Source: a virus. From it: DNA of 49,864 nt. The DNA lies in the IMG/VR virus record IMGVR_UViG_3300040801_000284, positions 1-49,864 of that record. One strand, written 5' to 3'. Below are positions 32,481 to 37,190 of this stretch, piece by piece. The notes below the pieces were generated by a model that saw only the letters and a program-made list of their open reading frames with translations, searched no databases and was not told where the DNA came from. Both the position numbers and the translations under genes were made by a program. The first letter of the stretch is position 1; each line of letters begins with the position of its first letter.

Positions 32481-35078
32481 TCAATAACCAAAGACTTGAT
32501 CTGCGGCTTGGAACCCGGATTGCTGAGAGGCAGGGTCAAAGTCAAAGATGCTAGACTTTGGTCTTGTCATAACCCCGTAGCGAAGAGCGTCGTACAGGTG
32601 GTCTTCAGCCTTGGTATCCACATCTTCGGGGTTGTTCTTATCCAAAGGGATAGCAGGAAGCTGGTTAATCAAGTTGGTGCAAGTATCAAAAATAACCAAT
32701 CGAGGCTCTTCAGTAAACGTATCAATCTGAAGCCTGCGGTGAATCTCGTTCTTACCGGACACTCGGGAACCCTTGGACCTGTCGGAAGGTCTCCACTTAC
32801 AACCCTTCTGGATCATCTGTTGTGCAAGAGAGGGACCACGATCTCCCCGCTGATGCCACAAAGAGCTATCCAGAACTCCATACCTGATCTTTTCCCCATC
32901 TTCAATTTCAAGGATCATGTCGGCAAGATCAGAAGCAGTTACCTTGGAGACATAAAGCTCCCGGTAGACTACGAGTTGTTCCGAGGGGGTAACTGCGAAC
33001 CACAAGACCCCCGTGTGGCTACCGTACCCATAGTCACAAGCCCTAAACTTTGTCCAAGAATCTGGAATATCATAAGGCTCAACGACATGGTCTTTCCTGT
33101 TAAACTCTGGGAAGGCGGCACCCTCATTGATATCCCAATCACCTTCCAGAAGCTGTCTGCGCTGGTGTTCCGGAAGCGAAAGCAGGTTAGCCTCATACAT
33201 CCCGTCTTCAGCAATATAGGGGTTGTCAAAAAGGGTAGCAGGAATAAACCGACGCTTGAAGAGTGGGTTACCTTCTTTACTATGCCCCTTAGGAAAAGTA
33301 ATTACTTCCTTGGTTTCAATGTTGGTTGCCCAGAAAGACTTCCCGAAAGGTGCCGGATCAACGAACATCTTCTTCACCCATTGGTGGCCGGGACCGCCGG
33401 GGTTACTTGTTGCCCTCTGATACAGCTTCAGGTTTGAGTCCTTGGTTGCACGAAGACGAGAACGAAGGTAGTCCCAAGCGTAAGGAGTAGGCCACTGAGT
33501 AAGTTCGTCAAAACCAATCCACGTAAAAGCCTGCCCTTGGTAACGAAGTACGTCATCATCCCTGTCGAGGTAGGACATCCACAAAGTGGCACCAGAAGGG
33601 GCAGTCCAAGTCTTGTCTCGTTCAGACCACTTGATACCGGGTATGGCTCGCGGGTAAAGAAGCTTGGAAGTAGAAATCAGTTCCCGAAGTTCTTCAGTAG
33701 ACCGACGAACCAAAAGCATTTTAGCATAAGGGCTGTTGAAGTTACGTACAGGGTCGGCCAGCATTGCGTAACTGTTGTGAGTGACAACAAAATCATCCGA
33801 TACATAGAGGTTATGCTCTGCCGAAACCGAGATACATCTGCCTCTGGCGGTTCGTCCAGTGTCTTCATTAATTCTTACAACCCTTCTACCAGCCTGTTTC
33901 CCTATTACACCACTCTTTTTTCGCGGCAGATTGAAGATATCATCCACATTCTGCCCAGTAATATAGGTCCTGTATGCGGTCTGGCAAATTACTCTTTCCC
34001 CAGTTTCGTTTTTATAGCTACCAACCTTCGTATACACACTGACACGATAGCCAAGAGAACGGGCAAGAAAAACAACTGCGTCAGTCAGAGACTTGGAGAC
34101 CGAGCAAAACTCTGCCCTAGCCCTGCCAGTGTCCCGATAACCATCGGTATCCATGAGTCCACGCAAGACTTCTTTGCGAGTTTCGATAGAGTTCAACAGG
34201 TAGTCATCCGGAACAAACTTGTCACTCGACTTCAAGCCAAGGAGGTTGTAGAACTCCAATGCAGAAACAATATCCTTTCGAGTCTGTCTCACGAACCTTA
34301 CAAACTGGTCTTTTACTACAACACTTGGTTGGCCAAAGTTTTTGTAGTAGTGATCCCAGTCTTCTTCATGGCTTGTAAAAGAGACCGCCTTGGTGGTCAG
34401 GCAACCATCTCCGAGAAGACACCCCATCATGTAGGGGTCAAGTTGCACTTCCCTAGGTTCAAACTCTATTGCAGAGTTGGTCTGGATAATAGCCGATTTG
34501 TTGGTTCTTTTCATGTGGCCCATCATACCGGCGGTGGAGGAGACTCTTACGCGGTCCTTACCATCTCTTGCCATCTTGTACTGCCACAGATGTTGCTCTG
34601 CAGTATCAAAAATGGTGCCATCATCGAACTCAACTTCCCAAACTGGCAACTCTTCCCACGCGAAAAGGTGAGTAATGGTTTGAGTCCCGCCAGTCACGGG
34701 GTCCGAGATAACATCCCCAACTTGCAAGTCCTGACAAGACTTCCAACCCCACGGGGTCAGGACAGACTGGTAGTCCCAGACGATCTTGCCGCCACCAGCA
34801 GCACCTCCGTAGAGAACCTCTTGCTCCGAGGCAGAGAGGAACTCGGTTTGTGGGCCGGGGTTGGGTTTGAAAATGATTTCTTGTGCTGATTGGACATTAA
34901 TTGCTGCCGGTTTCACGGTCGCTGGAGTCGAGGAGGTATTCGAACTCGTTTGCCCGGGAGGGTTCGTTTGTACTGCCGAGGCTTTCTTCTTCGAGCTTGC
35001 GGAGCGCTTCGAGCGTCTTTTGGAGGCTTTTAGCGGCACTGTAATACCCATTAGCACGCCTTCGGTTGGTTTGTTCAC
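32481..35078 (-). CDS. terL: Terminase large subunit interrupted by an intein, 865 aa precursor
   Basis: The mature enzyme would be 528 residues. Walker A (G-G-A-A-G-G-G-K then S) is split by the intein after K98. Walker B (W-I-G-F-D-E-L-T), the S-N-P-G-G-P-G-H coupling motif, and nuclease-domain acidic residues (C-D-Y-G-Y-G-S-H-T-G-V-L-W-F) follow. The start is GTG with GGGAGAGGATAAAGC upstream. The first 60 residues are low-complexity and overlap the preceding gene by 182 nt in another frame, so a later start is possible. It powers packaging and cuts concatemers; splicing is needed to rebuild the ATP site. Confidence 0.9.
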   Translation of the reverse strand: MNKPTEGVLMGITVPLKASKRRSKRSASSKKKASAVQTNPPGQTSSNTSSTPATVKPAAINVQSAQEIIFKPNPGPQTEFLSASEQEVLYGGAAGGGKIVWDYQSVLTPWGWKSCQDLQVGDVISDPVTGGTQTITHLFAWEELPVWEVEFDDGTIFDTAEQHLWQYKMARDGKDRVRVSSTAGMMGHMKRTNKSAIIQTNSAIEFEPREVQLDPYMMGCLLGDGCLTTKAVSFTSHEEDWDHYYKNFGQPSVVVKDQFVRFVRQTRKDIVSALEFYNLLGLKSSDKFVPDDYLLNSIETRKEVLRGLMDTDGYRDTGRARAEFCSVSKSLTDAVVFLARSLGYRVSVYTKVGSYKNETGERVICQTAYRTYITGQNVDDIFNLPRKKSGVIGKQAGRRVVRINEDTGRTARGRCISVSAEHNLYVSDDFVVTHNSYAMLADPVRNFNSPYAKMLLVRRSTEELRELISTSKLLYPRAIPGIKWSERDKTWTAPSGATLWMSYLDRDDDVLRYQGQAFTWIGFDELTQWPTPYAWDYLRSRLRATKDSNLKLYQRATSNPGGPGHQWVKKMFVDPAPFGKSFWATNIETKEVITFPKGHSKEGNPLFKRRFIPATLFDNPYIAEDGMYEANLLSLPEHQRRQLLEGDWDINEGAAFPEFNRKDHVVEPYDIPDSWTKFRACDYGYGSHTGVLWFAVTPSEQLVVYRELYVSKVTASDLADMILEIEDGEKIRYGVLDSSLWHQRGDRGPSLAQQMIQKGCKWRPSDRSKGSRVSGKNEIHRRLQIDTFTEEPRLVIFDTCTNLINQLPAIPLDKNNPEDVDTKAEDHLYDALRYGVMTRPKSSIFDFDPASQQSGFQAADQVFGY
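33774..34784 (-). mobile_element. Intein (class 3-type, 337 aa) with LAGLIDADG endonuclease in TerL Walker A
   Basis: It begins with Ile (no Cys/Ser/Ala at position 1) and ends V-V-T-H-N before Ser436 of the host. Block B has T-A-E-Q-H-L-W (Trp165 of the precursor), block F has R-C-I-S-V (Cys415), block G has T433. This W-C-T triplet with a non-nucleophilic first residue is the hallmark of class 3 inteins. Two LAGLIDADG motifs (M-M-G-C-L-L-G-D-G and V-L-R-G-L-M-D-T-D-G) give a homing endonuclease. Confidence 0.85.
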
Positions 35079-36654: not shown

Positions 36655-37164
36655 CTAAACCTCGCTTTCCCTCTTGTCAAAATGCTTGGCCACTGCGCGG
36701 CACATTTCCACGAACTCATCCATGTCAGTATCGGCTCTCCAAGAGTTTAGGGCACGACAGACCAATTGAATGTTCTCCTTGGTGTAGGGGCCACCGGGGA
36801 TTACCCGGTCAACCGAGACATTGTGGGGAAACTTCTTCCCCTTTTCCAGATGACAAGTAAGAGGCAGACCAGACAATGCACACTTGTAGTCTTGTTCCTC
36901 CAGCTTCTCCAGTAGAGTGTCTACCGAGAGCTTGTCTCTCTTCCTCCCTGCAGCGTACTGAAGACGAGAGAGGTACCTTCGCCAATTTCCAGAGATTTTT
37001 TTGTATTGGTTTTTTGTTGAAGCTCGTCCAGTAATGTACTGCCACTTACCCTTGCACTGTTCACTGCAGAATTTATGGACACCGGACTTGGGAGTAAACT
37101 CCTTGTCACACACTGCGCAGTTCTTCGGCTTCCAATTGGCGTTATCGTGATTCCATCCAGCCAT
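36655..37164 (-). CDS. HNH endonuclease with N-terminal zinc finger, 169 aa
   Basis: A zinc ribbon (two CxxC/CxxxC pairs, C-A-V-C and C-S-E-Q-C) is followed by a basic linker and an endonuclease-VII-like core: C-A-L-S-G-L-P-L, S-V-D-R-V-I-P, Y-T-K-E-N-I-Q-L-V and a helical tail. The ATG at 37164 was chosen because the upstream GTG (37188) would fall before the transcription start of its promoter. AGGGGA lies 6 nt upstream. It has its own promoter inside the late operon, consistent with a mobile free-standing endonuclease. Confidence 0.8.
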   Translation of the reverse strand: MAGWNHDNANWKPKNCAVCDKEFTPKSGVHKFCSEQCKGKWQYITGRASTKNQYKKISGNWRRYLSRLQYAAGRKRDKLSVDTLLEKLEEQDYKCALSGLPLTCHLEKGKKFPHNVSVDRVIPGGPYTKENIQLVCRALNSWRADTDMDEFVEMCRAVAKHFDKRESEV

Positions 37165-37190
37165 AACTAGTCCCCTGTCTTGATACACTA

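Follow-up and report, generated by a model that had tools for sequence, protein, structure and literature searches.

Class 3 inteins have been surveyed extensively: 1701 were counted in nr by 2020, 82.5% of them with LAGLIDADG motifs, and the surveyed members lack Cys at residue 1 and carry a Cys at block F position 4 (F:4) (PMC7891396). In mycobacteriophages, both P-loop inteins of the terminase large subunit (TerL) and class 3 TerL inteins have been described (PMC5050341). The TerL1-a inteins of that study are inserted directly after the Walker A Lys of the phage TerL, and the class 3 TerL inteins reported alongside them are TerL1-c and TerL1-e. A further counterpart is found in a catalogued phage genome, that of Thiohalocapsa phage LS06-2018-MD04 (OP947166, L093 in our set), in which the motifs GGAAGGGK↓L and THN↓S (↓, splice junction) enclose an intein with the Trp-Cys-Thr (WCT) triplet of class 3 and a LAGLIDADG endonuclease. 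Among solved structures, mycobacterial class 3 DnaB inteins (6riy and 6rix, MchDnaB1; 6bs8, Mycobacterium smegmatis) provide the best small splicing-domain references. Our literature search found no paper on inteins in TerL of the HMO-2011 type.

Here, we analyzed an intein in the TerL gene of a marine-type phage, IMG/VR virus record IMGVR_UViG_3300040801_000284, of which the window comprises 49,864 nucleotides. A frame on the minus strand (32481..35078) remains open for 865 codons; its ends encode a phage TerL with a Terminase_6N Pfam match, and its middle is an insert. Translation starts at the GTG at 35078 or possibly at an in-frame ATG nine codons later (codon 10). The N-extein (34785..35078, minus strand; residues 1-98) ends in YGGAAGGGK, including the Walker A portion GGAAGGGK (34785..34808, minus strand), and the C-extein (32484..33773, minus strand) supplies the remaining ATPase and nuclease parts. 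In sequence searches, the spliced form was nearest to the TerL proteins of Roseobacter phages CRP-9 (77% identity), CRP-603, and CRP-2 and of Puniceispirillum phage HMO-2011, all of which apparently lack an intein, since the spliced query aligned to them in one piece. About 1.6 kb upstream of TerL, at 36655-37188 (minus strand), lies an HNH/endonuclease VII-like gene (phrog_1035, phrog_3322).

The insert comprises 337 residues, Ile1 to Asn337 (33774..34784, minus strand; precursor residues 99-435), with the flanks GGAAGGGK↓IVWDYQ and DFVVTHN↓SYAML. It splits the Walker A Lys-Ser pair precisely, the Ser (33771..33773, minus strand) serving also as the +1 residue. These boundaries are supported by an unusually good set of controls. 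Among 80 related viral TerL loci, 78 lack the insert and read straight through YGG(A/S)AGGGKS; their proteins share 72-86% identity with the spliced form from the window. The boundaries are unique, because the empty-site relatives fix the junction and no junction residue permits a shift by one codon. A preliminary description of this DNA had proposed the same coordinates, an insertion point separating Lys from Ser in Walker A, and an Ile start, and had named a different junction with a Cys or Ser first residue as grounds for rejecting the assignment. The empty-site relatives exclude such a junction; the proposed coordinates and the insertion point proved exact. The precursor numbers given there, Cys415 and Ser436, are right if translation begins at the GTG. 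We consider it almost certain that a mobile class 3 LAGLIDADG intein invaded the TerL P-loop codons of an HMO-2011/Roseobacter CRP-like phage. The insertion site, the empty sites of the relatives, and the conserved catalytic residues support this, and structure prediction adds a Hint plus LAGLIDADG fold.

The two remaining loci of the 80 both carry an intein. One (L002) has an intein 44% identical to that of the window at exactly the same bond. The other (L037:1-490), whose TerL is 74% identical to the window's, begins inside an intein, so that the C-terminal portion of another class 3-like element (KCITV...SVTKN) is seen. Its insertion bond appears to be GG↓SAGGGKS, which places it about six codons upstream relative to the common Lys↓Ser bond, and Lys replaces the penultimate His.

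The sequence features defining class 3 are all present, and the fold, PDB, and tree evidence agree with them. Residue 1 is Ile rather than Cys or Ser. Block B reads DTAEQHLW and provides His65 (B:10; 34590..34592), Leu66, and Trp67 (B:12; 34584..34586), all features in this paragraph being on the minus strand. Block F, GRCISVSAEHNLYV, contains Cys317 (F:4; 33834..33836), the predicted branch-point nucleophile, and block G, DDFVVTHN↓S, contains Thr335 (G:5; 33780..33782) and the C-terminal splice residues His336 and Asn337 (33774..33779), followed by Ser436 at +1. When the window intein was aligned with 12 divergent phage and viral-contig homologues, Cys317, Thr335, His336, Asn337, and His65 were invariant and Trp67 was present in 11 of 13 rows; in a second alignment of divergent homologues (26 rows), all six residues were invariant. 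The Trp, Cys, and Thr that the preliminary description had assigned to blocks B, F, and G thus occupy the class 3 positions and are conserved in homologues, and this invariance across homologues rules out a chance occurrence of the triplet. The Ile start would also suit a class 2 intein, in which there is no residue 1 nucleophile and the +1 residue attacks the N-terminal junction directly. However, class 3 is told apart from class 2 by its Cys at F:4, Trp at B:12, and Thr at G:5. The window intein has all three, and no classified homologue has lost the Cys or the Thr, which makes a class 2 intein extremely unlikely.

The intein also contains a LAGLIDADG homing endonuclease domain, at about residues 115-290 (33915..34442, minus strand), recognized by Pfam as Hom_end (4.6e-9) and LAGLIDADG_3 (1.5e-6). 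Its two motifs, CLLGDG and RGLMDTDG, retain the expected catalytic Asp residues, D126 (34407-34409, minus strand) and D214 (34143-34145, minus strand); the endonuclease noted earlier at this locus is therefore a two-motif enzyme, apparently intact as judged from its sequence. AlphaFold2, run with the 26-row alignment, returned a model with a mean pLDDT of 95.1 and a pTM of 0.92, a confidently predicted Hint fold joined to a LAGLIDADG domain. In a Foldseek search, the model matched PI-SceI best (1ef0, E 1.9e-17), which likewise joins Hint and LAGLIDADG parts; 6riy, 6rix, and 6bs8, all class 3, came next among small splicing domains. A PDB sequence search recovered the same two groups, including these three entries. 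The mycobacterial chains share the Hint fold and the class 3 active site with the window intein but differ in their length of about 140 residues, in the missing endonuclease domain, and in their host protein, DnaB helicase. One might consider that the insert has decayed and lost splicing, leaving TerL dead, as splicing is so far a prediction and Ile1 is uncommon among relatives. Nonetheless, the frame is open, all splicing and endonuclease catalytic residues are retained, the TerL exteins look intact, and packaging would be expected to require TerL, so that we regard decay as very improbable.

By analogy with characterized class 3 inteins (PMC5222942, PMC7664689, PMC7891396), the window intein is predicted to splice. 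His65 would activate Cys317, and Cys317, together with His65 and Thr335, would attack the Lys98-Ile99 peptide bond, giving a block F thioester; the N-extein would next pass to Ser436, cyclization of Asn337 would release the intein, and an O-N shift would join the exteins, restoring GGGKS and with it the ATPase activity. Because Ser436 doubles as the Walker A Ser, the precursor should be unable to bind ATP; that the terminase is dead before splicing can thus be soundly inferred. Homing is likewise predicted, in that the endonuclease would cut the P-loop DNA of TerL alleles lacking the intein, at the empty site GGCGGCAAG/AGTTACGCA, and repair would spread the intein.

The block of ATP binding expected before splicing raises the possibility that the intein acts beyond a selfish element as a timed or redox-sensitive switch delaying terminase ATPase activity, and a mycobacterial DnaB intein has been reported as an oxidative stress sensor (PMC6195587). 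However, the intein is absent from almost all close TerL relatives (78/80), and in a relative with a closer TerL (L115) this site is occupied by an intein of a quite different kind, as a selfish element predicts. We therefore consider such a switch quite improbable, and it is slightly harder still to believe that the intein is kept for more than homing, namely because its splicing, dependent on one active-site cysteine, would time or gate the packaging of DNA.

Automatic classification of 172 homologous inteins from phages, viral contigs, and bacterial genomes showed that every one has the F:4 Cys and the G:5 Thr, with WCT in 169 and ICT, NCT, and FCT in one each. These inteins were picked for their resemblance to that of the window, and some contigs, though few, may have been sampled twice, so that the counts are no estimate of class frequencies. 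Most occupy a GK↓T/S P-loop junction: the N-extein ends in GK in 123/172, and the +1 residue is Thr (139), Ser (32), or Cys (1). The first residue is Ala in 127, Leu in 10, Ser in 9, Val and Gly in 6 each, and Ile in 1 (L105); Val, Leu, and Ile together account for 17. The uncommon Ile1 is the one difference found from the surveyed class 3 inteins (PMC7891396) and counts against a mobile class 3 element, although aliphatic residues also occupy this position in related TerL inteins. In 10/172 homologues the class 1 and class 3 signatures are mixed, with F:4 Cys and G:5 Thr retained but residue 1 being Ser (9) or Cys (1); these include L110, L131, L132, L143, L172, and L185.

In HMO-2011/Roseobacter CRP-type phages and their relatives, the TerL P-loop is a recurrent site of class 3 inteins. 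At the same TerL site, homologous inteins were 56% (L103), 44% (L002), 40% (L105, in a more distant TerL), and 34% (Thiohalocapsa phage) identical to that of the window. A maximum likelihood tree of 38 inteins paired the window intein with L103 (100/100), followed by L002 and L105, and placed it in a clade of seven rows (100/100). The members of this clade are class 3 inteins of the P-loop whose extein motifs resemble GGAAGGGK↓S; none begins with Ala, the first residue being Ile, Val, Leu, or Gly and thus mostly aliphatic. The Thiohalocapsa phage intein falls in a different part of the tree, despite the shared site and class. The likeness to TerL1-a concerns the insertion site; the TerL family differs, being Terminase_6-like in the window, and the identity between the inteins is low.

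L115 combines a TerL 65% identical to the window's, the highest value among intein-bearing relatives with both junctions in view, with an intein just 37% identical and outside the seven-row clade, which suggests that the same TerL site was probably invaded more than once. Vertical inheritance with TerL is not favored, as the closest TerL proteins (86%) are intein-free and the L115 intein lies elsewhere in the tree. A viral-contig scan with the intein alone as the query yielded one distant locus only. No near-identical copy was present in the searched collections, which may omit near-identical records; recent mobility is accordingly putative. One empty-site relative (L003) matches 117/120 bases of window positions 33654-33773, directly downstream of the insertion point, and about 82% further on. 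This is no more than suggestive of a possible recombination or co-conversion tract, since the stretch also encodes a conserved motif.

The window intein is clear-cut yet unremarkable, and many relatives occupy similar sites in phages and bacteria. It adds a well-defined class 3 case and leaves the picture of intein function unchanged; its practical value lies in its use as a splicing-tool candidate and as a homing case study. The view that class 3 inteins are comparatively rare and phage-associated undersells their abundance, given that GK↓T/S relatives are plentiful and occur in bacterial genomes as well. Many bacterial genomes (L195, L198, L201, L205, L208, and others) also carry homologous class 3 inteins at PLAYMRGR↓TLNDAF, in hosts that we presume to be PhoH-like proteins.
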